NCBI GenBank assembly: GCA_913041895.1
Contig: CAJWKQ010000003.1
Location: 1-48,254, forward strand
DNA: 48,254 bases
Direction of reading: 5' to 3'
DNA from: an uncultured Verrucomicrobiales bacterium
GTDB lineage: Bacteria; Verrucomicrobiota; Verrucomicrobiia; Limisphaerales; UBA1100
In this document: piece by piece, positions 7,645 through 28,714 of the stretch
Layout of the letters: every line of letters begins with the position of its first letter
How positions within the stretch are numbered: the stretch's first letter is position 1
Program-made: the position numbers and the translations under genes
Notes under the pieces: model-generated
Told to the model about the DNA's origin: nothing
Database searches by the model: none
Seen by the model: only the letters and a program-made list of their open reading frames with translations

Positions 7645-7974
7645 CTACTTCTTCTTGGCTTTTTTCTTAGCAGCCTTCTTCTTAGCAGGCTTCTTCTTAG
7701 CAGCCTTCTTCTTCTTAGCAGGCTTCTTCTTAGCAGCCTTCTTCTTCTTAGCTGGCTTCTTCTTAGCAGCTTTTTTCTTCTTAGCAGGCTTCTTCTTAGC
7801 AGCCTTCTTCTTCTTAGCAGCCTTCTTCTTCTTAGCAGGCTTCTTCTTAGCAGCCTTCTTTTTCTTTGCCGGCTTACGCTTAGCAGGCTTCTTCTTAGCA
7901 GCCTTACGCTTAGCAGGTTTCTTCTTAGCTGCCTTGCGCTTGGCAGGTTTCTTCTTAGCTTTTTTCTTGGCCAT
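7645..7974 (-). CDS. Histone H1-like, Lys/Ala/Pro-rich DNA-binding protein (AAKKKPAKKK repeats)
   Basis: 109 aa from ATG at 7974: MAKKKAKKKPAKRKAAKKK...AKKK; only M/A/K/P/R residues. Has its own downstream terminator and upstream hairpin. The listed ORF starts further upstream at 8088. Confidence 0.85.
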   Translation of the reverse strand: MAKKKAKKKPAKRKAAKKKPAKRKAAKKKPAKRKPAKKKKAAKKKPAKKKKAAKKKKAAKKKPAKKKKAAKKKPAKKKKAAKKKPAKKKKAAKKKPAKKKAAKKKAKKK

Positions 7975-7993
7975 AGAAGTGTACACCTCCTTC

Positions 7994-8037
7994 TTAGGGT
8001 TATCGTCGGATCGCACGTATGCGATTCGCCCAACCCT
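7994..8037 (-). promoter_or_regulatory. Imperfect dyad / structured leader or operator upstream of the histone-like gene
   Basis: TAGGGTT-ATCGTCGG-ATCGCA-CGTA-TGCGAT-TCGCCC-AACCCTA: outer 7-bp and inner 6-bp arms are perfect inverted repeats, 19 nt upstream of the ATG at 7974. Confidence 0.5.
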
Positions 8038-8161
8038 ATACACTAATTTAGTAGTGTTTGCATAGTTTTTTTTTAAGCTCTTTAACAAAAATGTTCACAC
8101 GTTCTACACAGTGAAATATTTTCTCTTCGCGATTTTTTTTTTTCACGATAGCTTTTTGAAG

Positions 8162-11207: not shown

Positions 11208-11888
11208 CTAATCCTCTTTGGGAACTGTCTTGTAAAGAATCATCACCCCGAAATCAGAACCCTTTTTTTCATCAGCTGTATAATTAACAGGGTGCACTCC
11301 CACCAGATTTTCTTCTTCGAGGCTGCTCAAAAATTTGGATACTACATCATCAAACGTATCCTTCTTATCGGCCACACAGTCGCTATGCAAAATGGTTTTT
11401 ACCGAAAGTTTGTGTAAGCCCGCCGCCTCGCGCTCCAGCGTGGCGGTGGAACCGCCGCCAAACCCAACCACAATTTCATCCTCAGCTTTCGCTGGCGATG
11501 AGGAGGTTTCACTTGCGGGAGCCTCTTGCTTCGGCGTTTCAGGTGACGGCGCAGTGGGTTCTGCTGCAGGATTTGTCTCTGGCGGTGGAGTCGGCTTGGC
11601 CGCTGGATTGGCTTGCGGCGGTGGGGCGGGTGCTGCGCCAGACGGACTGGGAGCTGGCTGTGGTTCGGGAGAGGGACTCGTTGCCGCTGCTGCCTTAATT
11701 GCTGCAGCCTCTTCATTGGAAGGAAACTCTATCTCTTGGGCACAGGAAGTCTGAGGACAAGCATATTTTCCCCCCATCTGATCGTTGATTTGACCCAGCT
11801 GCTGCTCATCCAAAGACAGTCCGTTAGAGCAATGCGGACAGGCGATAACGAAAAACCCATCAGCAAAAGTAACATTTTGACTCTTCAT
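11208..11888 (-). CDS. Hypothetical protein: N-terminal Cys-rich (zinc-ribbon-like) segment, Pro/Ala-rich linker, conserved-looking C-terminus
   Basis: 226 aa; 'FFVIACPHCSNGLSLDEQQLGQINDQMGGKYACPQTSCAQEIEFPS' then an APSPEPQPAP-rich linker. Confidence 0.7.
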   Translation of the reverse strand: MKSQNVTFADGFFVIACPHCSNGLSLDEQQLGQINDQMGGKYACPQTSCAQEIEFPSNEEAAAIKAAAATSPSPEPQPAPSPSGAAPAPPPQANPAAKPTPPPETNPAAEPTAPSPETPKQEAPASETSSSPAKAEDEIVVGFGGGSTATLEREAAGLHKLSVKTILHSDCVADKKDTFDDVVSKFLSSLEEENLVGVHPVNYTADEKKGSDFGVMILYKTVPKED

Positions 11889-11959
11889 CTTCGATGCCGG
11901 ATCGACCTAAATTCTGCGGGTAAACTTACAACATCCAAGAACAGTCAGCCAGTTCAAAC

Positions 11960-13222
11960 CTAGTTCTGCTTTACCCTTTTGATCTTGGCTCCCAGCTTTC
12001 CCAACTTTGTATCGAGATTTTCATAGCCTCGATCCAAATGGTAGATGCGGTTTACTTGTGTTGTCCCCTCAGCCACCATGCCAGCAATCACCAGTGCTGC
12101 ACTCGCTCGTAAATCACTGGCCATAACTTCCGCACCCGAAAGCTTCTGTACCCCGTGCACAATAGCACTAGGTCCCTCAATGGAAATCTCAGCTCCAAGT
12201 CGCTCCATTTCCTGAACATGAGTAAAGCGACTTTCAAATATACGTTCGGTAATTATGCTGATTCCCGGTGTTTGGGTCATAAATGCCATCATCTGGGCCT
12301 GTACATCAGTAGGAAAACCCGGGTGTGGCAAGGTGGTTACATGCACGCTGTGCAATCCCCGACCTCTCTTGAAAGTCAGTTTTCCCTTCGACTGATCAAC
12401 CTTTACTCCGGATTCACGCAGCTTTTCTATTACCGCTTTCATGTGATCCTGTCTGGCGCCCTTAAGGGTTACCTCGCCATTGGTAGCGACACCGGCAATA
12501 GCATAGGTTGCTGCTTCAATCCGATCAGGTATAACTTCGTGTTCGGCACCACCCAACTCCTTCACCCCCGTAATGGTGAGCGTAGGGGAGCCTAACCCAT
12601 TAATCTGCGCACCAATATTGTTAAGAAACTTCCCCAAATCCACTACCTCAGGTTCACAAGCTGCATGTTCAATGACCGTAATACCTTCAGCCAAAGTGGC
12701 AGCCATCATTGCATTGGCCGTTCCGAGTACTGTTGGTCCGGCGCGACCCCCCAAAAACATTTCACCACCAGATAACTTTTTCGCCTTGGCGAGAATATAA
12801 CCCTTATCAATGTTAACCTTTGCTCCCAGTGCTTCCATCGCTTTTCGATGCAAATCCACCGGCCTTGTGCCGATAACACAGCCTCCCGGCATAGACACAG
12901 TCGCTTCTCCAAGTCGCGCGAGTAATGGCCCTAGCACACAAAGAGAGCCGCGCATTTTTCTGACCAAATCGTAATCGGCGAAATCGCGCACCTTCTGTGC
13001 CTGCACGGTGACTGTGTCCCCTTTGATTTTAGTTGTAGCTCCCAGACTTTCAAGAATCTGGCACATGGTCTTGACGTCGGCTAAATCGGGCACATTACGA
13101 ATGATGCAAGGCTCACGTGTAAGAAGTGTTGCAGCTAAAATTGGTAACACTGCATTTTTGGCTCCACTAATTTGCACCTCTCCGTTGAGCGGGGTGCCGC
13201 CTTTGATCTCAAGACTGTCCAC
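11960..13222 (-). CDS. murA: UDP-N-acetylglucosamine 1-carboxyvinyltransferase
   Basis: 420 aa; 'GGTPLNGEVQISGAKNAVLPILAATLLT', 'PGGCVIGTRPVDLH', 'LPHPGFPTDVQAQMMAFM', 'DLRASAALVIAGMVAEGTT'. Confidence 0.97.
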   Translation of the reverse strand: MDSLEIKGGTPLNGEVQISGAKNAVLPILAATLLTREPCIIRNVPDLADVKTMCQILESLGATTKIKGDTVTVQAQKVRDFADYDLVRKMRGSLCVLGPLLARLGEATVSMPGGCVIGTRPVDLHRKAMEALGAKVNIDKGYILAKAKKLSGGEMFLGGRAGPTVLGTANAMMAATLAEGITVIEHAACEPEVVDLGKFLNNIGAQINGLGSPTLTITGVKELGGAEHEVIPDRIEAATYAIAGVATNGEVTLKGARQDHMKAVIEKLRESGVKVDQSKGKLTFKRGRGLHSVHVTTLPHPGFPTDVQAQMMAFMTQTPGISIITERIFESRFTHVQEMERLGAEISIEGPSAIVHGVQKLSGAEVMASDLRASAALVIAGMVAEGTTQVNRIYHLDRGYENLDTKLGKLGAKIKRVKQN

Positions 13223-15540: not shown

Positions 15541-16653
15541 TTAGACCAATTCACCGGCTACCTGATTGACCCCTTTAACGAGTGCCTGCCAATCCTCAGC
15601 AGTCGTCTCCCATCCACTACTAAAACGCACCACTCTATCGGCATCTTCTTTCGCAACGCCCATCGCTGTGAGAACATGGCTGGGTGTTTCCTTTCCGCTA
15701 GAACAGGCACTGCCGGTTGATACGGCAAAGCCGGCTTTATCCAGCTTTACCACCCAGCGTGCCTGACAATCTCCCGGAAGCAACGCACTTACCGTGTTCC
15801 AAAGCCTCCCTTGACCTTTACCCAGAACTTCCGCGCCAATGAGGCTCATTACAAAGGCATTCCGCCAAGCCTCTTTTTCCTGAGTAATGCCGGAAGTCAA
15901 CTGATGTTCTCGTTCCCTCAAGGCCGCCATCATGGACAGTACTCCCGCTACATTCTCCGTTCCTGCCCGCCTACCTTCTTCCTGTGCTCCTCCCACCAGT
16001 TGTGAATATACAGCACCTCTAGAAGGGCACTTCAAAAAGCCTACACCTTGAGGACCCCCGAATTTATGTGCGCATCCACTAACAAAATCACAGTCGCCTA
16101 ACCCCTTGGCTGGAAGTTTCCCTACCCACTGTGCCGCATCGCAAAAAAAAGGAATCTGATATTCTGAACAGAGCTGTTGCACCTCTGTCCACGGCTGCAA
16201 TACACCTGTTTCGTTATTGGCCGCCATCACGGCGATCAAGCCGGGTTTTTCTTTGGTTAGTCTTTCCTTTAAAACATCCACATCTAAAACGCCCGTATTA
16301 TTGACCCGAAGCGTTTTATAACGGTTGGGGAAATGGGTGCGGGTTGCCTCAATCACGCAAGGATGCTCAATGGCCGAAATCCAGACTTCCTCATCCCCTT
16401 CCAAAGCTTGGGCGCAATGATGAAGCACCAGATTATTGGATTCAGTTGCCCCGGATGTCCAAACGATATCCAAAGGGCTGCACCCTAAAAATCCAGCCAA
16501 TTGATCGCGCGCATCTGCCATTGCGCGCTCTGCTCTTGCGCCCATTCGGTGAGGACTAGAAGGATTACCCACATACCGGTCAATGGCATCCACCCAAGCA
16601 TCCTTGGCCGATGCACACAAAGGAGTGGTCGCATTATGATCAAAGTAGAGCAT
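15541..16653 (-). CDS. Cysteine desulfurase (NifS/IscS family)
   Basis: From ATG at 16653: 'MLYFDHNATTPLCASA', 'NPSSPHRMGARAERAM', 'AHKFGGPQGVGFL', 'STGSACSSGKETPSHVL'. Confidence 0.95.
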   Translation of the reverse strand: MLYFDHNATTPLCASAKDAWVDAIDRYVGNPSSPHRMGARAERAMADARDQLAGFLGCSPLDIVWTSGATESNNLVLHHCAQALEGDEEVWISAIEHPCVIEATRTHFPNRYKTLRVNNTGVLDVDVLKERLTKEKPGLIAVMAANNETGVLQPWTEVQQLCSEYQIPFFCDAAQWVGKLPAKGLGDCDFVSGCAHKFGGPQGVGFLKCPSRGAVYSQLVGGAQEEGRRAGTENVAGVLSMMAALREREHQLTSGITQEKEAWRNAFVMSLIGAEVLGKGQGRLWNTVSALLPGDCQARWVVKLDKAGFAVSTGSACSSGKETPSHVLTAMGVAKEDADRVVRFSSGWETTAEDWQALVKGVNQVAGELV

Positions 16654-16746
16654 GGGAGCAGAACCGAGGATACTTACCAATGCGTTGGTTTCGAGCCTTT
16701 TGTGGCTTGATTCCAAACCGCTAATCCGAAACCTTCACTTGATCAG

Positions 16747-17223
16747 ATGGCTGATGGCAAAAAAACACTCTTTTTTAAACGAACGCATTTTGCCACGCAT
16801 CTGCCATTGAATTACCATTACAGCCCCTCACATTTCTGGGCTAAGGCAAGAGACGGCGTTTTGCAAATTGGTTTCACCAAGTTTGCCACCCGCATGCTAG
16901 GTGATATGGTCGACCATGGTTTTGAAATAAAACCCGGAGCCCAAATACAACCAGGTCAGATTTTGGGTTGGGTGGAAGGTTTCAAGGCCATTAGTGATGT
17001 CTATTCTTTTACCGAAGGTCAATTCGTGGGAACCAACCCGGCGCTGCAGCAGAACATCGCTCTCATCAATAAGAAGCCCTACAACGAGGGGTGGATATAT
17101 GAAGTGAAAGGTCAGCTGGATAATAAATGCGTCGACGCAGAAGGTTACGCTGCTATTCTTAATCAAACCATCGACAAAATGCTGGAGCAGCAGCAGGCAG
17201 AAAAGGATAAGGAAATTGAATAA
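16747..17223 (+). CDS. Glycine cleavage H-like lipoyl-domain protein
   Basis: 158 aa; 'QIGFTKFATRMLGDMVDHGFEIKPGAQIQPGQILGWVEGFKAISDVYSFTEGQFVGTNPALQQNIALINKKPYNEGWIYEVK' parallels GcvH; K80 aligns with the lipoylated Lys. Confidence 0.8.
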   Translation: MADGKKTLFFKRTHFATHLPLNYHYSPSHFWAKARDGVLQIGFTKFATRMLGDMVDHGFEIKPGAQIQPGQILGWVEGFKAISDVYSFTEGQFVGTNPALQQNIALINKKPYNEGWIYEVKGQLDNKCVDAEGYAAILNQTIDKMLEQQQAEKDKEIE

Positions 17224-18325
17224 AGCCCGTTACATCATGATAGGTGGATTTCTGGGAGCGGGAAAAACCACCAGTGTCGCCGCACTTGCTCAACACCTGA
17301 GTGATCAAGGCCAGAAGGTTGGTTTGATTACCAATGATCAGGGCCGTGAATTAGTTGATACAGCTATGCTACGCTCCAAGGGATTTGCCACCGAGGAAAT
17401 TCCCGGAGGTTGTTTCTGTTGCCGATTCAATTCATTGGTTGATGCAGCCGGAAAGCTTACCGAATCGACCCGCCCGGATGTCTTTATTGCTGAACCAGTA
17501 GGTAGCTGCACTGATCTAGTAGCGACAGTCACTTATCCATTACGCCGGATTTATGGCGATGATTTTAGTATCGCCCCTTTAAGCGTGCTTGTAGACCCCA
17601 TCCGTGCATCACGCATCTTTGGCTTGGCTGAAGGCGGCCAGTTTTCTGAAAAAGTCACCTATATCTACCGTAAACAACTTGAAGAGGCAGATTTTATTGT
17701 CATCAATAAAACGGACCTTTTGGATGCTGATAAGCTCACTGCTCTTACCAATACTCTTAAAATCGAATTCCCAAAAGCTGAAGTGCTGCATGTTTCGGCC
17801 CGAAGCGGCGAAGGGCTAAAGCAATGGTTCGACCGGATTATTGACGCTGAACAAATCGCCCGCAATGTCATGGAAGTAGATTATGAGGTTTATGCTGAAG
17901 GTGAAGCATTACTCGGTTGGTTGAATGCCACCGTACAACTCAATAGCGAGGATAGTTTTGAAGCCAAGAGCGTACTGCAGCAACTGGCGGCGGATATTCA
18001 AACCCAAATGAATAAAACGGGTTCAGAAATTGCACACCTAAAAATGACCTTGAGCCCGGATACTGGCCTAGGCGGAAATGTAGCAATCATTAATCTGGTT
18101 CGAAACGACTTTGTACCGGAACTCTCGGCAGATCTGGATACTCCAATCGAAAGTGGACAACTCATTATCAACCTACGTGCTGAAGGCGATCCCGATAGCT
18201 TACGTAACGCTGTAGAAAAGGCAGTTGCCAACGTGCCAGCAGAACTCACTGCCACTTTGGATCACTTGGAGCATTTCCGCCCAGGCAAACCAGAGCCAAC
18301 ACATCGGATTACTGATTTAGCCTAA
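17216..18325 (+). CDS. CobW/G3E-family GTPase (metallochaperone-like)
   Basis: 369 aa with putative TTG start overlapping upstream stop (or ATG 17237); 'GGFLGAGKTT', 'GGCFCCRF' (CxCC), 'NKTDLLDADKL'. Confidence 0.9.
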   Translation: MNKARYIMIGGFLGAGKTTSVAALAQHLSDQGQKVGLITNDQGRELVDTAMLRSKGFATEEIPGGCFCCRFNSLVDAAGKLTESTRPDVFIAEPVGSCTDLVATVTYPLRRIYGDDFSIAPLSVLVDPIRASRIFGLAEGGQFSEKVTYIYRKQLEEADFIVINKTDLLDADKLTALTNTLKIEFPKAEVLHVSARSGEGLKQWFDRIIDAEQIARNVMEVDYEVYAEGEALLGWLNATVQLNSEDSFEAKSVLQQLAADIQTQMNKTGSEIAHLKMTLSPDTGLGGNVAIINLVRNDFVPELSADLDTPIESGQLIINLRAEGDPDSLRNAVEKAVANVPAELTATLDHLEHFRPGKPEPTHRITDLA

Positions 18326-18389
18326 ATTTAGGGCCAAGTTTTCAGTCATTGGCAAAAGGCATCAAAAGGACTATTTTTTCCGAACGTTC

Positions 18390-18785
18390 ATGCCTGAAAA
18401 GCCGCGCATTCTTTTTTGCCACTGCAACTACGCTCGAGTTGTGCCTGATGAGGTGAAGAGTAGCGTATTGGAGGGATTATGCAAATCAGGTCAGGCCTTC
18501 GATGCAGTTGCTGACTTATGCGAAATGGCTGCACGCCGTGACCCCGCACTCAAGCGCTTGGCAGCCGGGGAATCCCCGGTCAAAATTGCAGCATGCTACC
18601 CCCGTGCCGTAAAATGGCTCTTTGGAGGCTGTCAGGCTACACTAAATGGTGAGCACACTGAAGTAGTCAATATGCGCGAATTGAATGCTGAGGATGCGAC
18701 CAATACGGTGTTAAATGAAACTCTAACGCCTAACCTACCTGCCGATGGTTCGGTGGCCAAGGTGGAAGGGGAAAAGAAGATTTAA
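18390..18785 (+). CDS. Small HdrA-like Cys-containing protein
   Basis: 131 aa; 'RILFCHCNYARVVPDEV...VKIAACYPRAVKWLFGGC' resembles the HdrA pattern 'CxC...AACxPRxxxxLF'. 4-nt gap to the next gene. Confidence 0.6.
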   Translation: MPEKPRILFCHCNYARVVPDEVKSSVLEGLCKSGQAFDAVADLCEMAARRDPALKRLAAGESPVKIAACYPRAVKWLFGGCQATLNGEHTEVVNMRELNAEDATNTVLNETLTPNLPADGSVAKVEGEKKI

Positions 18786-18789
18786 ACCC

Positions 18790-19647
18790 ATGGCTATCGC
18801 AGAGGAAACCACTTTACGCATTATCCTCTATGAAGGGGAGGGGGCTGAAAAGTTGGCCGCTGATGAACGCAGTTCCACCCTGCTTGCGTTATTGGAAAAG
18901 GGCTACGCCGTCACTTGTGCCGGTGAGGGAAAGGTATCCCAAGCCGATGAAAGCTCACTTTTGGTTTTGGGACGGTTCAATAATGGAAAAGTTCCGGAAG
19001 CGGAGGATGTCAATGGTCTGGTTTCAATTCGTTTTAGAGATATTAACGGACATAACCCTGAAGAAATAACCCAACTGGTTGAAGAAGAACGCGAAAGCTC
19101 AAAAGCAGCCAAACACGGTGACTGGAAACCCTGGTTTCCAGTGATTGATTACGACCGGTGCACCAACTGCATGCAATGTCTATCCTTCTGCCTATTTGAT
19201 GTGTACGGCACGGATGATAAGCAGGAGATTCAGGTGCAGAATAATGACAACTGCAAAACCAACTGCCCGGCCTGTAGTCGCGTTTGCCCAGAAGCGGCGA
19301 TCATGTTCCCCAAATATAAAAGCGGCCCCATCAATGGCGACGTGGTGAGTGATGGAGATCTAAACCGCGAAAAGATGAAGATCGATATCTCTGCCCTCCT
19401 GGGTGGAGATGTATATCAAATGCTGCGTGACAGAAGCCAGCGTTCCAGAAGCCGTTTCTCCAAGGAACGCGATTCAGATAAGGCTCTGGGCGAACGCACC
19501 AAGTGCCTGACGAAACTGGCTGCTGAAGCAGATATTGATATCCCACTTGAAGTTTTACAGAGCCTTCCCAGCGCCGATGAAATTGCCAAGAAAGCAGAAG
19601 CTGCAAACGCCAAAGCAGAAGCTGCACTTAATGCACAGAAAAACTAA
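18790..19647 (+). CDS. 4Fe-4S ferredoxin-type protein with a novel N-terminal domain
   Basis: From ATG 18790; 'CTNCMQCLSFC' (Cx2Cx2Cx3C) and 'CKTNCPACSRVCP' (Cx3Cx2Cx3CP). N-terminal ~110 aa not recognised. Confidence 0.85.
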   Translation: MAIAEETTLRIILYEGEGAEKLAADERSSTLLALLEKGYAVTCAGEGKVSQADESSLLVLGRFNNGKVPEAEDVNGLVSIRFRDINGHNPEEITQLVEEERESSKAAKHGDWKPWFPVIDYDRCTNCMQCLSFCLFDVYGTDDKQEIQVQNNDNCKTNCPACSRVCPEAAIMFPKYKSGPINGDVVSDGDLNREKMKIDISALLGGDVYQMLRDRSQRSRSRFSKERDSDKALGERTKCLTKLAAEADIDIPLEVLQSLPSADEIAKKAEAANAKAEAALNAQKN

Positions 19648-19654
19648 TTTAATT

Positions 19655-20251
19655 ATGAAAATATTTCTCTTCCTTTTCTCTCTTGCGATTAGCTTAACGG
19701 CTGCCGATAAAGGCACTCCTCTTTTTGATGGCAAAACCCTCAAAGGCTGGACCCCTGCACCCGGCGGTAAATGGCAGGTAAAGGATGGTGCTATTGTAGG
19801 AACCAGTCCGCGCAGTGAAAGGCGGCACGGAATTTTACTCACTGATAAACAGTTCTCTGACTTTGTGGTAAAAGCAAGGTTCCGCGTACACAAGGGTGAC
19901 AGTGGATTTTATTTTAGAGCCGAAAGAGTTAAGAGTGCCGTCAGCGTGAACGGTTTTCAGGTGGAAGTGGATACTACGCAGGAGACAGGTGGACTGTATG
20001 AAACGGGCGGACGCGCCTGGGTTCATAAGCCTAATGCAAAGGTAATACAGGAACGCGGTTACAAGCAGGGAGAGTGGACCGATCTGGAACTCAGCGCCAT
20101 CGGTAAACATATAGTCGTTAAAATTAATGGCGTGGTTTCCTCTGAGTTAAAAAAGGACCCGGGCCGCAGACGCGGGCACATCGGCCTGCAACTCCACGGC
20201 GGGCAGGATATGCACGTGGAGTACAAGGATTTGGTTATCTACGAAAAGTAA
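19655..20251 (+). CDS. DUF1080 (3-keto-disaccharide hydrolase-like) secreted protein
   Basis: From ATG 19655: signal peptide 'MKIFLFLFSLAISLTAADKGTPLFDGKTLKGWTPAPGGKWQVKDGAIVG'; '..GFYFRAERV..GFQVEVD', 'HIGLQLHGG'. Confidence 0.92.
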   Translation: MKIFLFLFSLAISLTAADKGTPLFDGKTLKGWTPAPGGKWQVKDGAIVGTSPRSERRHGILLTDKQFSDFVVKARFRVHKGDSGFYFRAERVKSAVSVNGFQVEVDTTQETGGLYETGGRAWVHKPNAKVIQERGYKQGEWTDLELSAIGKHIVVKINGVVSSELKKDPGRRRGHIGLQLHGGQDMHVEYKDLVIYEK

Positions 20252-20276
20252 ATCGAACTTGGAAAGTTGCCGACTA

Positions 20277-22214
20277 TTATGACTTACCCTTGGTTAATTC
20301 AGACAAACGGTCTTCCAGTTTCTTCAGCCGAGCTTTGAATCTCTCCAAGCCTTCAGGTGTAAACCGGGCGCGCTTCATGAAATCCTTCATGCGCGCAATT
20401 TCCTGACGTAACTTTTGAATCTCCTCATTGTTCACACTGGGACGAATCGGCTTGGGTCGAACCGGTTTGTTTCCACCACCAGCTTTGCCATAAAGCATTT
20501 TGTATACTTCCTCAGCTGAGCGGCTCTGACCGGTACGTTCATTAAACCAGGGTGATCCTCCGATAAAAACACGACCCGCAGGGATTTTTTTTCCTCCCTT
20601 TACCCATTCTTCAAAGGTGGGTACTCCGGTTTGTTTATCGTGACCGGGCTTGCCCCCGCCCTTGGCAGCATCTTTATCCAAATTCTCCTGAATCCAACGA
20701 GCCCATGTCCCGCTCCCGCGACCATACCCTCCGGGTAAAGGCCTCAAATCACGAGTTTGCCTTAAGGGAGGTTGCCCCCAATGAGTCGGGAAAGGTTTTC
20801 CATTAGGTGCCCTGTAGACTTTAGTATTTTCGGGTTTGCCTCCTCCCGCCTGTAATGTAGCCAGCTCTTTTTCAAGTTCAGCCAGCTTGGCATTGTGTTT
20901 AGCAAGCTCTTCTGGAGTAAAACGTGCACGGCGCGCAAAGACTTTCATGCGCACGATTTCTTTTAACAGTTCTGCAATACGCGCCTGATTGTTTCCCGCA
21001 ACCGGTTTTGTACTGCTTGTCCCACCTTTTGCCACTGCAACAGTCACCTTAAAGGTCTTCAATGGCGGTTTCTGTTCAAAGACACGCTTATACTCCAGAA
21101 CGATCTCTGCCTTACCAGTCTTATTAGCCAAATAGCTCGCAGTTGACATGCCAGGAGCACCCAATGCCGGGCCACCGGCACGGTGAGATACCTTCCCAGA
21201 AAGACTTAGAACATCCCCTGCAGTTTTATCATTCCATGTGAAACCGGTAGTGGGGTTACCAGCCAAGCTAATCTCTATGTGTTGACCTGCCTTAACAGTA
21301 ATCGTTTTACCATTGTCACTGATAGTTAATCGGGTGACATCACCTCCATTGTTGCTAGCTGTACTAACCTTTCCTAAAGTGATACTGGAAACAACCAATC
21401 CATTGCGTGGGGCATCATCAGCAATCCGGCGATCCATGATATAACAGGAAACCAGTAGCCCCTGCTTGTCGCTACGAATGTAACGACGCTCAAATTCTTT
21501 GAGTGGTTTCTTTGCCGTTGCCAAAGCTATCTCATAAAGCTCATCCAGTGTCTTGGCTGGGGCACCCTTTTTGTTTTTGCCAAGCTGCGCGCCTTTTTCC
21601 AGATAGCTGTCTCCTTCAGGCTGGGGAGGAACTACTCCGCCAGGCCGAGGGGCAGGAACCGGGCGTCGACGGTTGAATGTGCGGTATCTCCGCTCCGTCA
21701 CTTTATTATTCTCTACAACGATAATGGTTTCATTTCCAAAGCCAACCCAGCTGGTAAAACTTACCTTATAGCTGTAATTACCTTTACTCTCGGCTTTGGC
21801 TTTTTCCCAGGCCTTGATGGCAGCCTGCACCATGGCTGTATCTTCCTTAGCCTGTTTTTTGGCTTGTTCCATAGCTTTCGCATTGGGATCAAAAACAGGC
21901 GGAGCAACTGGGCGGGGTGCCACCGGATCAACGGCAATTGGCGGAGCAGGCACCGGCTTTGCTCCCGGCTTTTTTGCGTCTTTATCCAAATTCTCCTGAA
22001 TCCAACGAGCCCATGTCCCACTACCGCGACCATAACCACCGGGAAGAACCCGGAGGTCGCGCGTTTGTCTTAAGGGGGGTTGCCCCCAATGAGCTGGAAA
22101 CTCTTTCCCGTTGGGAGCCTTGAATATCCTCTTCGGCTTGGCAGGCTCCGCACCCTGAAGATTCAGGCCAAGGGTTACAAAAAGGACACTGAGTATGAGT
22201 TTAGTTATTTTCAT
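20277..22214 (-). CDS. Secreted multidomain protein: duplicated 'HWGxPPxxQTRDxxxLPGGYG' motif, DUF6174-like region, chagasin (I42)-like domain, duplicated coiled coil
   Basis: From ATG at 22214, overlapping the upstream VIT/vWA stop. 'NPTTGFTWNDK' is chagasin-like; 'YSYKVSFTSW...NNKVTERRYRTF...TLDELYEIA' is DUF6174-like; two copies each of the PGGYG motif and of the ARFTPE coiled coil. Confidence 0.85.
   Translation of the reverse strand: MKITKLILSVLFVTLGLNLQGAEPAKPKRIFKAPNGKEFPAHWGQPPLRQTRDLRVLPGGYGRGSGTWARWIQENLDKDAKKPGAKPVPAPPIAVDPVAPRPVAPPVFDPNAKAMEQAKKQAKEDTAMVQAAIKAWEKAKAESKGNYSYKVSFTSWVGFGNETIIVVENNKVTERRYRTFNRRRPVPAPRPGGVVPPQPEGDSYLEKGAQLGKNKKGAPAKTLDELYEIALATAKKPLKEFERRYIRSDKQGLLVSCYIMDRRIADDAPRNGLVVSSITLGKVSTASNNGGDVTRLTISDNGKTITVKAGQHIEISLAGNPTTGFTWNDKTAGDVLSLSGKVSHRAGGPALGAPGMSTASYLANKTGKAEIVLEYKRVFEQKPPLKTFKVTVAVAKGGTSSTKPVAGNNQARIAELLKEIVRMKVFARRARFTPEELAKHNAKLAELEKELATLQAGGGKPENTKVYRAPNGKPFPTHWGQPPLRQTRDLRPLPGGYGRGSGTWARWIQENLDKDAAKGGGKPGHDKQTGVPTFEEWVKGGKKIPAGRVFIGGSPWFNERTGQSRSAEEVYKMLYGKAGGGNKPVRPKPIRPSVNNEEIQKLRQEIARMKDFMKRARFTPEGLERFKARLKKLEDRLSELTKGKS
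20671..20820 (-). repeat. Internal coding repeat copy 2 (PGGYG motif)
   Basis: Near-identical to 21979..22127, including 'tctttatccaaattctcctgaatccaacgagcccatgtccc' shared exactly. Confidence 0.85.
21979..22127 (-). repeat. Internal coding repeat copy 1 (PGGYG motif)
   Basis: See 20671..20820; encodes KAPNGKEFPAHWGQPPLRQTRDLRVLPGGYGRGSGTWARWIQENLDKD. Confidence 0.85.
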
Positions 22215-24546
22215 TTTTGGTTTCTTGATAAATCTCGTAATGGTTGCCATCTAGCACAAACTCCACGTGTTTGCCTAATGAAATCCACTTTAATGTATCA
22301 GGTTTTTCTGCCACCAGATTGAAGTAAGCCTTCGAGCCGAACTTAATGCGGATTTTTTTGGTTTTCTTTTTCAAGGTTTGAACTTCGGCATCTATCCAGC
22401 AGGTCCCGTTCTGATAAAAGCTTCGACCGGCCACAAAGCGGATATTCTGCTGAACCTGACCACCTCCCGCACCTGAAAAATAGCGTGTAGTTGTATCCCT
22501 TGCTCCCGGGGCCGCAAGGGCTCCTGCTGACCAGCTGTATGATGATAAGGCTTTGTATGATGAATTGGCTTGAACTAAGCTTTGCTGAGCACGGGCTGCT
22601 GCAACTGCACCAGCACCTGATTTATCCATTTTCATGGATTTGAGATTTTCTTCCAAAGCACGAACGGCACCAGCATCTCTATCGAGCCCACCCAAAAGAC
22701 GGCGGTTGACCGCCACATTATTGATCCGATCATCTTCCAAAATCAGATATGCGGTAAACGGAGTTACGATGCCATATTTCTTGGCTAGCGTAGTGACCTC
22801 TTCCTTGAGTTCCTTGTTTTCACCATGCAATCGGATTTGATCCAATAGGTATCCCACCCGCCGAGTCGCCCACAAGCGCGGGATAAAGTCATGCTTATCA
22901 GATTCAGCTTGAAACTCGACGGGGTATTCCATCTTAACCTTTTTACCGTTCACCATGCCCGCCAATAACAAATCTCCCTTACCTTTACCTGAATAGCGGC
23001 CCACAACCACCATTTGGTCTCCCTTGAAAACATCTGGAAGTGGGGCAGGATAAAACTGCTTCAAGTTGGCTTCCCATGAAACCACTACATCCGGATCAGC
23101 CAAAACGGGTTCATTGATTTTGGTATAGAACTGAGAAACCTTCACTTCGATGTCCTCAGAAGGCAGGACATACTGACTAAAGGCTCTGGTGGACTCGGTG
23201 ATCTTGTCGAGAAGATGGGTATTCACATCATTTCCAATCCCGAAACAAAAGACACGGGTCTTGCCCGCTTCATCCTTCACGTTCTGGACAATCTGTTTTT
23301 CGCCAGTAATGCCAACGGTTGGGCGGCCATCGGTTAAAAAGATTACCACAAAGGGGCGTTTGCTCTTCTTAGGCCGGAGCTTCAAGGTAGCAGCCATGGC
23401 ATCATTAATGGCCGTTCCTCCAATCGGTTTTAAGCCTCCGACAAATTTCAGGGCCTTTTCACGGCTTTTGTCAGACACTTCCTTGAGCTCAGAAAACAGA
23501 GTCTCTGCCTCAGTGGAAAAACGCACCACCTCAAACCGGTCTCCATCATTAAGGTTATGAAGGCAAAACTCCAAGGCCTTCTTGGCCTGCTCAATTTTCT
23601 TTCCAGCCATGGAGCCTGAGGTATCGAGAACAAACGCAACATCTTTCTCCACGACCTTTTCCTGCTTCACGTCAATCCCGGGTGACAACAAAAGAAGAAA
23701 GTAACCGTCCTCGTCTGGGTCAGGTCGATGGGTCAAGAGGTTCAATCCCAGCTCGGTTTTTTGCGGAGTGAAATAAATCGCGAAGTTGTTCTCGGGCAGA
23801 ACATTCTTTTCCTCATAACCAATCAACGCCTTCTTGGCACCATCGCGCTTGATCTCTACTTCATGGCTGGGTGAATAAATAGATTTGAGTGGAGTCTGGG
23901 ACTCGATCTCCATTTTCACACTTAGGGTCTTAATTGGCTTAGCTGAATACTTGCCCGTATTGAGAGGATACTTGTAACTCACCAAACCACTATCTTTCTT
24001 AAGCACCTGTTTGTAAGTCACGCGCGTGCGCTTAGTGCTGTTGGGCTCAATGGGGAAAATACGTACCTTGTAAAGATCATGCTCAGCATACTCTAATAAG
24101 GCTGGATCTTGCGCGTTACGCACGATGTCCTCATAAATCTTGCGTGCCTTCTCGGCTTTCAAAAGTTCGGCTTTCTGCATCTCACCATTGATATCCATGC
24201 GAAAATCTGTCAGCACAGCTCCCTTAGGTACTGGAAAAATAAAGTGACCCTCCAGTCGGCTTCGATTGGGGTTATAAAAGACCTGCTTAACAGTCGTCTC
24301 AGCAATCTGATCAGTTACCTTGATGCTGACCCTTTGTTCCTGCACCTCCATCGGAGCAAACCGGTACACCCGAGGACGAGGTACTGGCCATGGGCGGGGT
24401 GGATGAATTGGATGATCAATGATCGGAGGTCGGGGAGCAGGGAGAATTCTAACATCTGAAACAACGATCAAACCGCCGGCCTGCACCTGATAAAACGGGG
24501 CTAAGACGGCCAATAAAAGAAATAGAGAAGCCAGTTTCGTTTTCAT
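22201..24546 (-). CDS. Secreted VIT + vWA domain protein (inter-alpha-trypsin-inhibitor heavy-chain-like)
   Basis: 781 aa; signal peptide; VIT 'VSIKVTDQIAETTVKQVFYNPNRSRLEGHFIFPVPKGAVLTDF'; MIDAS 'AFVLDTSGSMAGKKI' and 'VIFLTDGRPTVG'. Confidence 0.92.
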   Translation of the reverse strand: MKTKLASLFLLLAVLAPFYQVQAGGLIVVSDVRILPAPRPPIIDHPIHPPRPWPVPRPRVYRFAPMEVQEQRVSIKVTDQIAETTVKQVFYNPNRSRLEGHFIFPVPKGAVLTDFRMDINGEMQKAELLKAEKARKIYEDIVRNAQDPALLEYAEHDLYKVRIFPIEPNSTKRTRVTYKQVLKKDSGLVSYKYPLNTGKYSAKPIKTLSVKMEIESQTPLKSIYSPSHEVEIKRDGAKKALIGYEEKNVLPENNFAIYFTPQKTELGLNLLTHRPDPDEDGYFLLLLSPGIDVKQEKVVEKDVAFVLDTSGSMAGKKIEQAKKALEFCLHNLNDGDRFEVVRFSTEAETLFSELKEVSDKSREKALKFVGGLKPIGGTAINDAMAATLKLRPKKSKRPFVVIFLTDGRPTVGITGEKQIVQNVKDEAGKTRVFCFGIGNDVNTHLLDKITESTRAFSQYVLPSEDIEVKVSQFYTKINEPVLADPDVVVSWEANLKQFYPAPLPDVFKGDQMVVVGRYSGKGKGDLLLAGMVNGKKVKMEYPVEFQAESDKHDFIPRLWATRRVGYLLDQIRLHGENKELKEEVTTLAKKYGIVTPFTAYLILEDDRINNVAVNRRLLGGLDRDAGAVRALEENLKSMKMDKSGAGAVAAARAQQSLVQANSSYKALSSYSWSAGALAAPGARDTTTRYFSGAGGGQVQQNIRFVAGRSFYQNGTCWIDAEVQTLKKKTKKIRIKFGSKAYFNLVAEKPDTLKWISLGKHVEFVLDGNHYEIYQETKNENN

Positions 24547-24648
24547 AATGGGTAGACGACCAGAGGATCTAAAATACTCCCATTTTCAGGTGCGTCACGC
24601 ATTTTGCGACACTTGACCCAATTGATAGGTACCTACACACTTCCGTCC

Positions 24649-25950
24649 ATGCTCAAGCACATATTTGCGGTTATAGCGATGCTGTATCTACCCCTGTCAG
24701 CCGCCGAATATAAGATCCACTCTTGGACAAAACATCATCTCACCGCACACTTCTGGGCTGAGGGCGGGCATTACGGGGATTTTAACAAGGACGGCAAAGG
24801 GGACGTGGTAGTAGGCCCCTATTGGTATGCTGGACCGGATTTTAAGCAGCGACATACCATTTATGATGATTCTCCAACCTTCGACATGATGAAGGACGGC
24901 AAAAAGGTCACAATCTCAGGCTACAAGGGACAGCTCAGCGGCACCAACGGTTACTCCAATAATTTTCTTACCTACACCTACGACTTCAATTCTGACGGCT
25001 GGAAGGACGTTCTCGTCTTTGGCTGGCCGGGCAAAGACACCACCTGGTACGAAAATCCAAAAAACAAAAAAGGCCTCTGGAAAAGCCACAACATTTTCCC
25101 CGTAAGCGATGGCGAATCTCCACGCCTAGAGGACATGGACGGGGACGGTAAGCCAGAGATCCTCGTCTTCCGCGATAAACACCTCGGCTACGGCCAAGCC
25201 GATTGGAATGATCCCACCAAGGAGTGGAAGTTCGTCAAAATTAGCACCCCAGGTAAATGGCATAAGTATACCCATGGCTATGGAGCGGGGGACGTAAATG
25301 GTGATGGCCGCAAGGATATCCTTGAGACAGCTGGCTGGTGGGAACAACCCAAAAAGGTTGATGGCACTCCATGGCGGTTTCATAAAGTTCCCTTCAGTCT
25401 CTTGCGAGGTGGCGCGCAAATGTATGCCTACGACGTAAACGGTGACGGCCGCAATGATGTTATCACCAGTTGGGATGGTCACGGCTATGGCCTTGCGTGG
25501 TATGAAAATAGAGGGACACACAAAAACGGTTCGGTGAAATTCGCAGAACATGTGATTATCAACAGCAAACCAGAACAAAATCCCTACGGAGTTAAATTTA
25601 GCCAGATCCACGCTATCGACTTAGCCGACATTAACGGTGATGGCCTACTTGATATTGTCACCGGTAAACGCTTCTGGGCTCATGGCCCGGGTAAAGACGC
25701 CGAACCAGGCGCACCAGCAGTACTTTACTGGTTTGAGCTTACCCGCAAGAACGATAACGCTGAATATATCCCGCACCAAATTGACGACAATTCTGGGGTA
25801 GGCACTCAGGTAGCTGCAGGGGATGTAAATGGCGATGGCCTTCTCGATATCGTGGTGGGCAACAAAAAAGGTGCTTTCGTCCATCTGCATTCTGTAAAAA
25901 AAGTGGGGAAAAAAGCTTGGCAGGCCGCACAACCGAAACGAGTTCACTAA
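24649..25950 (+). CDS. Secreted FG-GAP/VCBS-repeat protein
   Basis: From ATG 24649, signal peptide; repeated Asp-rich loops DFNKDGKGDV, DFNSDGWKDV, DMDGDGKPEI, DVNGDGRKDI, DVNGDGRNDV, DINGDGLLDI, DVNGDGLLDI. Confidence 0.9.
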   Translation: MLKHIFAVIAMLYLPLSAAEYKIHSWTKHHLTAHFWAEGGHYGDFNKDGKGDVVVGPYWYAGPDFKQRHTIYDDSPTFDMMKDGKKVTISGYKGQLSGTNGYSNNFLTYTYDFNSDGWKDVLVFGWPGKDTTWYENPKNKKGLWKSHNIFPVSDGESPRLEDMDGDGKPEILVFRDKHLGYGQADWNDPTKEWKFVKISTPGKWHKYTHGYGAGDVNGDGRKDILETAGWWEQPKKVDGTPWRFHKVPFSLLRGGAQMYAYDVNGDGRNDVITSWDGHGYGLAWYENRGTHKNGSVKFAEHVIINSKPEQNPYGVKFSQIHAIDLADINGDGLLDIVTGKRFWAHGPGKDAEPGAPAVLYWFELTRKNDNAEYIPHQIDDNSGVGTQVAAGDVNGDGLLDIVVGNKKGAFVHLHSVKKVGKKAWQAAQPKRVH

Positions 25951-26071: not shown

Positions 26072-27817
26072 ATGCCTACAACCAGCGCACCATTAAAGAT
26101 TCCCCGCGTTGTGCCCCAGCAAAAGCTGCGGCAGCCCAAGGAGAATATTCCTCAAACCCGGGAAGAGAGGGAATTGATCCTACGTGAGGTGCGTCATTAT
26201 GTTGCCGAACAAACACTGGTCCCCCCCGTGCCACTGGAAGACCTTAAGGTACATGCAGATAAACTCGTAGTGGCGCTGGATACCAAAGAAGTTTACCGTG
26301 ATTACATTGGCATCCTCATTAACAACGAACTTTGGCGCGAAACACTTGCAGCAGTACCTTTTGAGCGCCGACTATTAATGGTGCCCAAATGTCTGCGTGT
26401 CGAAGCCAAGTGCCCAGCACCCTTCGATGAATTCGGATTACTCTGCAAAAGCTGTGGGCTCTGTAGTATTCAAGACTTAGAGTACGAAGCAGAGAAACTA
26501 GGGTATGCCGCATTGGTCGCTGAAGGAAGTGCCATCGTGATGAGCCTCATTCAAACCGGCAAGATTGATGCGATTGTCGGTGTGGCTTGTATTCCTGTTT
26601 TGGAACGTGCCTTTCCATACATGGAAGCAGCAGCTGTACCCGGAGTAGCAATCCCGCTCCTGCAGGATGACTGCATTGATACCACCGTGGATGAGGAATG
26701 GATCTGGGATTACATACATCTAACCAGTGATGACAAAACCCGCAGACTCGATCTAAGCCAATTACATGAAGAAGTAGAGACGTGGTTCACTCCGGAATCA
26801 CTCGAAAACATCATGGGCCAAAGTGAAGGGGATACTGAAGTAATTGCCCGGCAATGGCTGGCAAGATCAGGCAAACGCTGGCGACCTTTCCTTACCTCCG
26901 CCTCTTTTCAGGCGCTTCGTGGTGATGCAGATGAGCCGATCCCAGAAGACCTCAGAAAAGTGGCTGTTGCTATTGAATGTTTCCACAAGGCCTCGCTCAT
27001 TCATGATGACATTGAGGATGAAGATACCGAACGTTACGGCGAAAAGACTTTGCATGAGGAATACGGTATTGCTGTCGCATTAAACGTGGGCGATTTACTC
27101 ATAGGGGAAGGCTACCGGTTAATTGCTGAAACATCTGTCTCGGCCGAACAGCGCGCGGCCATGCTCAAGGTCGCAGCCGAAGGCCAAAGACATCTTTGCC
27201 GCGGACAAGGTGCTGAACTCATTTGGAAACGTAATCCCGAACCCCTCAAGTCTGTCGAGGTGCTTGATATTTTCAGGCAAAAAACCGCACCTGCATTTGA
27301 AGTCGCCCTGCAACTGGGCTGCATTTACGCCGATCTGGAAAAGTATGAAGACGTATCCGAGGTTTTGGGGCAGTACAGCGAGAATCTAGGGATCGCATAT
27401 CAGATTCGCGATGACCTATCGGATTTAGGCAGTGAAGGTGAAACCAACGATTTAGCCGGTTTTCGCCCCACACTGCTATTGGCCATAGCTCACGAAAAAG
27501 CCAAAGATGAGCAAAAAGGTCAGCTGGCACGAATTTGGCGAAGGCAAATTCCTGAAGACATCACTCTCAAGGAAATTGAAGAATGGTACCGTAACCTTAA
27601 AGCCGTAAAGCGCGCTGAGGACCTGCAGCTCACCTACAAAGAAATGGCTATTCGTTCGTTGACCGATCTGGAAAATGCTAACCTTAAAGGATTATTGCGG
27701 CGCGTGATTGGAAAAATTTTCAATGATACGGTGGTTAAAGGCTGGTGCAGTGAGGTGCAGCAAGTCAGTGAACTCGATAAGGTGCGTGAACGGCAGGCTC
27801 AAAAGGTTCAAGCCTAA
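26072..27817 (+). CDS. Fusion of DUF116-like Cys domain with polyprenyl (isoprenyl) diphosphate synthase
   Basis: 581 aa; N-terminal 'CPAPFDEFGLLCKSCGLCSIQDLEYEAEKLGYAALVAEGSAIV...GKIDAIVGVACIPVLE' (DUF116-like); C-terminal 'SGKRWRPFL', 'LIHDDIEDED', 'YQIRDDLSDL' (two DDxxD). Confidence 0.85.
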   Translation: MPTTSAPLKIPRVVPQQKLRQPKENIPQTREERELILREVRHYVAEQTLVPPVPLEDLKVHADKLVVALDTKEVYRDYIGILINNELWRETLAAVPFERRLLMVPKCLRVEAKCPAPFDEFGLLCKSCGLCSIQDLEYEAEKLGYAALVAEGSAIVMSLIQTGKIDAIVGVACIPVLERAFPYMEAAAVPGVAIPLLQDDCIDTTVDEEWIWDYIHLTSDDKTRRLDLSQLHEEVETWFTPESLENIMGQSEGDTEVIARQWLARSGKRWRPFLTSASFQALRGDADEPIPEDLRKVAVAIECFHKASLIHDDIEDEDTERYGEKTLHEEYGIAVALNVGDLLIGEGYRLIAETSVSAEQRAAMLKVAAEGQRHLCRGQGAELIWKRNPEPLKSVEVLDIFRQKTAPAFEVALQLGCIYADLEKYEDVSEVLGQYSENLGIAYQIRDDLSDLGSEGETNDLAGFRPTLLLAIAHEKAKDEQKGQLARIWRRQIPEDITLKEIEEWYRNLKAVKRAEDLQLTYKEMAIRSLTDLENANLKGLLRRVIGKIFNDTVVKGWCSEVQQVSELDKVRERQAQKVQA

Positions 27818-27826
27818 CTCAATTTC

Positions 27827-28714
27827 ATGAGCCTCCGGCTGGAAATGCTGCAGGTAGCGCGTGTCGCGCCAAAAGCCCTTGAAGACGCTAGCGATTTGGT
27901 TCGGGACTTCCTTCTTTCCCAACAACATCCTGATGGCGGATTTTGTGATCGGGACGGAGAAAGTGACCTATACTATACCGTCTTTGGCCTGAATGCACTG
28001 GCCGCCTTTCAAGTAGAGCCGGAAAGGAATGCAGTGGAAAAATTCCTGCTGAAATTTGAGGAAGGAGAAGGATTGGATCTAGTCCACTTAAGTTGCCTTT
28101 GTCGCTGCTGGGGAACAATCGGCCAAAACCGTATGCCTAAGGGCCTTCGTAAGGCACTACTCAGCCGACTGGAAGCTTTTCGAAAACCCTGCGGGGGCTG
28201 GGACAATAATCCTGAGCGTGAACACGGCACGGCCTACGGCTCTTTCCTTGCCTTGGGCGCTTATCAGGATTTAGGCAAGCTCCCGCCCAAGCCACTGCGC
28301 ATATTACAAAGCCTGAAAGCCTTGGAGACACCCGATCACGCCTGGAATAATCACCCCAATCTTCCGGTAGGCTCCACCAATCCAACTGCCGGAGCAGTGG
28401 TCTTGCTAAACAACCTGCATTTACCCATTAATGATGAAGTGGGCAAATGGCTGAGGAATCAATTGCACCCTCAAGGCGGGTTTGTGGCAGTACCCGGAGC
28501 CCCTATGCCGGATTTACTAACGACAGCTACCGCACTCCATGCATTGGCTGCATTGGAAGTTCGCCTTACTGAAGAAGAAACAGAACGCTGCCTGGATTTC
28601 ATTGATACCCTTTGGGATGCCACCGGCGGTTTCCATGGCAACTGGACCGATGATTACCTTGATTGCGAATACACCTTCTATGGCCTACTTGCCTTGGGCC
28701 ATTTAAGTTTATAG
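27827..28714 (+). CDS. Prenyltransferase-beta/squalene-cyclase-repeat (alpha-alpha toroid) protein
   Basis: 295 aa; 'HPDGGFCDRDGESDLYYTVFGLNALAAF', 'KPCGGWDNN', 'HPQGGFVAVPGAPMPDLLTTATALHALAAL', 'ATGGFHGNWTDDYLDCEYTFYGLLALGHL'. Confidence 0.8.
   Translation: MSLRLEMLQVARVAPKALEDASDLVRDFLLSQQHPDGGFCDRDGESDLYYTVFGLNALAAFQVEPERNAVEKFLLKFEEGEGLDLVHLSCLCRCWGTIGQNRMPKGLRKALLSRLEAFRKPCGGWDNNPEREHGTAYGSFLALGAYQDLGKLPPKPLRILQSLKALETPDHAWNNHPNLPVGSTNPTAGAVVLLNNLHLPINDEVGKWLRNQLHPQGGFVAVPGAPMPDLLTTATALHALAALEVRLTEEETERCLDFIDTLWDATGGFHGNWTDDYLDCEYTFYGLLALGHLSL

Follow-up and report, generated by a model that had tools for sequence, protein, structure and literature searches.

A nine-gene locus of Verrucomicrobiota joins a lipoyl carrier and Fe-S proteins to isoprenoid-type enzymes and probably makes a modified isoprenoid lipid

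Organization of the locus

The window analyzed here (the whole stretch of 48,254 nucleotides, from an uncultured Verrucomicrobiales bacterium) contains four tightly packed, co-directional genes that diverge from a gene for a cysteine desulfurase. A first-pass annotation had described this arrangement, and its positions and spacing were confirmed. Two additional genes of the same locus lie downstream. The features are:

15541..16716, minus strand: cysteine desulfurase (NifS/IscS-like; Aminotran_5, 1.4e-48), divergent; the ninth member of the locus
16747..17223, plus strand: GcvH-like lipoyl carrier, "H" (GCV_H, 3e-22, Pfam)
17216..18325, plus strand: G3E (CobW/HypB/UreG-type) GTPase (cobW, 2.3e-25, Pfam), with a GAGKTT Walker A motif and a CFCC metal motif
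18390..18785, plus strand: hdr-like protein of 131 aa, possibly HdrA-N-terminal/MvhD-like in fold, with conserved C10, C12, C44 and C69
18790..19647, plus strand: 2x[4Fe-4S] ferredoxin (Fer4 families, Pfam), with its own N-terminal domain and a C-terminal extension
26072..27817, plus strand: DUF116–trans-polyprenyl diphosphate synthase (PPS) fusion (polyprenyl_synt, 1.1e-43; DUF116, 2.5e-34; Pfam)
27827..28714, plus strand: alpha-alpha toroid protein (Prenyltrans, 4e-14), a relative of prenyltransferase beta subunits and terpene cyclases

The cobW gene begins with a TTG codon and overlaps the stop of the H gene; 64 nt separate it from the hdr-like gene, which is followed after 4 nt by the ferredoxin gene. 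On the divergent strands, nifS and H are 30 nt apart. A longer ORF call for the ferredoxin, at 18745, reflects an upstream start that finds no support among relatives. Profile searches upheld the first-pass assignments of the GcvH-like protein, the CobW GTPase (whose Walker A and CxCC motifs are invariant) and the ferredoxin. The proposal of a self-contained redox/metal cassette limited to four genes did not survive: the four belong to a nine-gene locus that also encodes isoprenoid enzymes and a radical SAM protein, and three more of its members, nifS and the two genes at 26072-28714, are present in the window itself.

In diverged Verrucomicrobiota, the cassette forms the 5' half of this locus. 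The full order is nifS (divergent), then gcvH-like, cobW, hdr-like, ferredoxin, radical SAM, DUF116/PPS fusion, toroid prenyltransferase-like and squalene-cyclase-like; it is complete in L162, L164, L175, L196, L203, L210, L213 and L219, whose PPS proteins are 62-72% identical to that of the window. A scan of named genomes with the DUF116 domain yielded more than 500 relatives' loci, of which the best 80 were compared. Nearly all of these 80 are titled Verrucomicrobia, and Chthoniobacter flavus Ellin428 is among them. Within the same best 80 of more than 500, the H/cobW overlap has a median of 4 nt, the hdr/ferredoxin gap is 1 nt and the radical SAM/PPS gap is 22 nt; in the stretch of sequence examined around each locus, about 20 of the 80 have nifS in this divergent place. 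The next commonest gene family besides the nine occurs in only 9 of these best 80 loci, so that leftover synteny does not account for the order. Some MAG contigs carrying the locus (L161, L166, L185, L205, L212 and others) are titled Akkermansia muciniphila or Proteobacteria; these titles are probably wrong.

Seven of the nine genes are found in the window, the last two of them 6.4 kb downstream, beyond an insertion. The close marine relatives L156-L159 have DUF116/PPS directly 3' of the ferredoxin gene, whereas in the window, L153 and L154 the two are separated by 6.4-7 kb of other genes. This insertion (window 19655-25950; also in L153 and L154) encodes a 3-keto-disaccharide hydrolase, a 657-aa protein, a VIT/VWA protein and an FG-GAP protein; within the 657-aa protein, the segment HWGQPPLRQTRDLR is repeated internally. 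Elsewhere in the window, at 7645-8088 on the minus strand, lies a gene for a histone H1-like, low-complexity, Lys/Ala-rich protein with AAKKKPAKKK repeats.

Two genes of the nine are missing from the window. The cyclase gene is located on another contig of the same genome (C7:34300-36060). No radical SAM gene was found in the window's own assembly, a MAG that is 81.5% complete; five of six close relatives have it, away from the cassette. We take its absence to be a consequence of assembly incompleteness. Loss or decay in the window's clade was considered and rejected, as relatives keep intact copies elsewhere, and the in-frame stops flagged in relatives' radical SAM genes are natural gene ends. 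Separately, the radical SAM gene of L245/L252 (Chthoniobacter flavus) and L250 (G395) is split over two frames, by either a sequencing error or a real frameshift.

Other arrangements were also observed. In the f9 genomes, hdr-ferredoxin, cobW and DUF116/PPS lie at separate places, yet all are kept; in those f9 genomes that were checked, H and cobW are likewise apart. In Chthoniobacter-like loci (L168, at 11792-12387; L169, L170 and L189), a pair of small genes separates DUF116/PPS from the toroid gene; by size and order only, it resembles a toxin-antitoxin pair.

Co-occurrence across the phylum

Does the association extend beyond gene order? We examined 390 genomes of the phylum. The 131-aa hdr-like family occurs in 43 of them, representing 32 genera, and the full DUF116/PPS fusion in 64. 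All 43 of the hdr-like genomes also have DUF116/PPS (Fisher p 1e-41), and so does every one of the 22 genomes in which CobW was matched strongly (Fisher p 2e-19). Two groups can be told apart among the H matches: 12 genomes with E < 1e-31 and the remainder with E > 1e-19. These 12 genomes with cassette-type H are the same 12 that have the closest CobW proteins (p 5e-23); the three p values ignore shared ancestry and thus overstate the association. The pattern covers many families and includes genomes in which the genes are scattered. The cassette is accordingly co-conserved outside its own genome, and chance is excluded because the order is conserved in diverged genomes and the genes co-occur phylum-wide.

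The complete set of nine was not seen at every locus. Many other genomes of the phylum have a fused hdr-ferredoxin gene within an isoprenoid operon, with H and CobW not nearby; likewise, many operons of other classes have hdr-ferredoxin, radical SAM, PPS, toroid and cyclase genes, with no H, CobW or nifS observed. Because this core occurs without them in many loci, H, cobW and nifS appear to constitute an auxiliary arm, and the lipoyl arm may be dispensable or have substitutes.

Additional genes adjoin the operon in some lineages. A gene for a PQQ/BamB-type beta-propeller lies upstream of fused hdr-ferredoxin in L042, L049, L055, L058, L059, L061, L063, L065-L067, L069 and L071, and such a propeller is found beside the operon in many members of the phylum outside Verrucomicrobiia (Pfam-checked in L055 and L144). 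Its position suggests an envelope-facing partner. In L144, L148 and L151 (G076, G110 and G172, all of one genus) a far longer cluster continues past the cyclase. According to Pfam searches on L144 only, this extension encodes NapG-/NapH-like Fe-S proteins, a NuoEF-like flavoprotein, two more propellers, an ABC ATPase and an FtsX permease, and then CobW, which hints at export or electron transfer in the envelope.

The lipoyl-domain protein, the GTPase and the cysteine desulfurase

The H protein scores 79.2 bits against the GCV_H profile (cut-off 22.2, Pfam), and its predicted lipoyl lysine, Lys80 in the motif EGFKAxSD, is invariant in 35 sequences. The profile match and K80 thus place it in the GCV_H superfamily as a lipoyl-domain protein that is predicted to be lipoylated. 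Against the gcvH equivalog (NCBIfam), it reaches 71.9 bits, below the cut-off of 115.85. The genome encodes a canonical gcvH on contig C183 and gcvP on C91; the cassette H protein is therefore a paralogue, and its identification as canonical GcvH was rejected on both counts. No member of the LplA/LipB family was found in the window's own genome or in G395, which incomplete assemblies could explain.

The CobW protein likewise exceeds the threshold of its family (89.7 bits, cut-off 20.7, Pfam); C66, C68 and C69 are invariant, as is Walker A, in 47 sequences. It shares the GTPase core and the CxCC motif with CobW/G3E GTPases (PF02492) but fits no characterised subfamily: its best equivalog, CobW_rel_Se, was matched with 74 of the 180 bits needed (NCBIfam). 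In NifS, H118, K218 and C338 are invariant. The locus was also screened as a candidate defence system, which was discarded: PADLOC gave only a weak match to the GTPase.

The hdr-like protein and the ferredoxin

The 131-aa hdr-like protein had no sequence match in Pfam, NCBIfam or the PDB. Its model is of high confidence (pLDDT 91.6), and four of its five best Foldseek matches in the PDB are chains of Hdr complexes (5odc_D, 8rvu_F, 5odh_D and 5odc_A), with probabilities of 0.75-0.92, marginal E values of 0.01-0.04 and TM scores of at most 0.47. The "HdrA-like" label of the first-pass annotation can therefore be retained in part: it is plausible as a resemblance of the predicted fold to HdrA/MvhD, and membership in HdrA was rejected, as the protein has 131 aa, lacks an FAD-binding domain and matches no profile. 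Like the methanogen HdrA N-terminal domain and MvhD (5odc A, D), which it may also resemble in fold, it has clustered cysteines, four of which are invariant or nearly so. Unlike those proteins, it is usually fused to a ferredoxin, as in many genomes, or encoded directly before one. The eight cluster cysteines of the ferredoxin are conserved in 73 sequences.

The isoprenoid and radical SAM proteins

The catalytic motifs of the downstream half are intact. In 114 sequences of the fusion protein, the first DDxxD motif (312-316) is invariant and the second (447-451) nearly so, which identifies it, by both motifs, as a predicted trans-polyprenyl diphosphate synthase. Long-chain polyprenyl synthases are characterized by Ala/Ser at positions -5/-4 of the first Asp-rich motif; the PPS has Ala/Ser there, and these small residues suggest a long-chain product. 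Bacterial long-chain trans-polyprenyl diphosphate synthases (PF00348) have the same two Asp-rich motifs but no DUF116 at the N-terminus, a domain in which seven cysteines are invariant. A model of that domain (pLDDT 80) had no significant fold match in the PDB. In the open-access literature, we found DUF116 in a single paper, as a predicted metal-binding archaeal protein, and no mention of its fusion to a PPS.

The toroid protein most closely resembles, among PDB profiles, the beta subunits of Rab GGTase (8.9e-9) and FTase. Of the Zn ligands, the Asp is kept, the Cys is replaced by Leu231 and the His by Tyr50. It was thus rejected as a protein prenyltransferase beta subunit, and may be only a scaffold. 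The partner gene on C7 encodes a predicted class II (squalene-type) terpene cyclase: it has Pfam support, and D348, D350 and D351 of the DxDD motif are found in 38 of 38 sequences. Squalene-hopene cyclase and its relatives (PF13243/PF13249) share this protonation motif and the toroid repeats. However, the L055 cyclase reaches 91 bits where the hopene_cyclase model demands 431, and belongs to a separate family; the L162 cyclase, used as a query, is only 27-34% identical to a second SHC-like protein in three genomes.

The radical SAM partner of the relatives is assigned to that superfamily by profile (Radical_SAM, 5.6e-14) and by its CX3CX2C motif (C58, C62 and C65), which is present in 71 of 71 sequences. 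Three later cysteines are invariant or nearly so. Its closest solved relatives include BlsE and peptide maturases (SkfB).

Proposed pathway and alternative explanations

The analysis shows which nine genes make up the set, in what order they lie, that they co-occur and that their catalytic motifs are intact. We consider it probable that this Verrucomicrobiota locus couples a redox, sulfur and metal-supply half to enzymes that make a modified isoprenoid lipid without oxygen. We infer the product class and every reaction as follows. The DUF116-fused synthase would build a long polyprenyl diphosphate, to be bound and cyclised by the toroid protein together with the squalene-cyclase-like class II enzyme; the radical SAM enzyme would then modify the chain or ring. 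Both the radical SAM enzyme and the Fe-S DUF116 domain could receive low-potential electrons from the hdr-like protein and the ferredoxin. Sulfur or dithiol reducing equivalents, for either cluster repair or insertion of sulfur into the lipid, would come from NifS and from the H-type carrier in its lipoylated form, and the CobW-type GTPase would load a metal into one of the partners. A broader proposal is more tentative, and we hold it at somewhat below even odds: that this is a phylum-wide pathway to a new class of polyprenyl-derived lipids, possibly sulfur-bearing and redox-active in the envelope, in which a lipoylated carrier and the HdrA-like/ferredoxin proteins drive radical SAM chemistry on an isoprenoid.

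The view that the first-pass annotation took, a self-contained lipoyl/Fe-S system for electron or sulfur transfer resembling sHdr-LbpA, now appears improbable. A lipoyl carrier, a putative hdr-like fold, a ferredoxin and a cysteine desulfurase do adjoin, and for LbpA systems it has been proposed that lipoate acts as the sulfur carrier of an Hdr-like complex (PMC6067878). The sHdr-LbpA loci of sulfur oxidation (PMC6067878, PMC10332631) also encode a GcvH-like lipoate-binding protein with Hdr-like Fe-S proteins. However, the present locus has no HdrB/HdrC or LplA/LipS1/LipS2 neighbors: as the annotation had noted, neither hdrB/hdrC nor LplA neighbors the cassette in the window, no hdrA/B/C set lies beside the lipoyl protein there or recurs in the best 80 of more than 500 relatives' loci, and LplA/LipS1/LipS2 is not a recurring neighbor in those 80. 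LbpA has two conserved extra cysteines, N- and C-terminal (PMC6067878). In the H alignment, cysteine occurs only at C128 (80%) and at position 87 (60%), where the window's protein has Ser; there is none at the N-terminus, and hence no LbpA pair. Membership in sHdr/LbpA was rejected on the neighbors and the missing pair. The earlier statement that the unit is unlike sHdr operons thus held. The unit, in which Fe-S proteins and a G3E GTPase accompany the lipoyl protein, is co-conserved; it is also bound, in order and occurrence, to the polyprenyl synthase, toroid protein and cyclase.

Two other explanations were considered. The radical SAM enzyme might modify a peptide or protein that the prenyl synthase and toroid protein prenylate or hold, with the Fe-S/lipoyl arm maintaining the maturase. 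The inclusion of SkfB-type maturases besides BlsE among its solved relatives, the affinity of the toroid protein to protein prenyltransferase beta subunits and the PQQ-type propellers adjoining the operon in many relatives are consistent with such a target. We regard it as unlikely: the best 80 of more than 500 relatives' loci show no recurrent gene for a short precursor, the Zn-ligand Cys and His are replaced, and a DxDD class II cyclase is hard to reconcile with a peptide. It is slightly less likely still that NifS, CobW, H, the hdr-like protein and the ferredoxin are a general Fe-S/metal cofactor assembly set that adjoins the isoprenoid genes only because DUF116 or the radical SAM protein depends on it. 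NifS, CobW and ferredoxin are typical parts of such sets, and in many loci it is H, CobW and NifS that were not seen; but even in such loci hdr-ferredoxin is a fusion within the isoprenoid operon, and gcvP and gcvH of the genome's own are present.

Implications

We found no description of the nine-gene locus in the open-access literature (subscription papers and preprints were outside the search). Each enzyme falls in a known superfamily and the locus is of an isoprenoid biosynthetic kind, with a real chance that its product class is new. The set is kept together in many Verrucomicrobiota lineages even when the genes are scattered, which points to an important product, and the presence of the locus in a named strain, Chthoniobacter flavus Ellin428, makes the pathway testable. 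If the product is a modified isoprenoid, it would be a further lipid class for a phylum that abounds in soil and in the sea, give the DUF116 family its first biochemical context and extend the role of protein-bound lipoate beyond the 2-oxoacid, glycine-cleavage and sulfur-oxidation systems.
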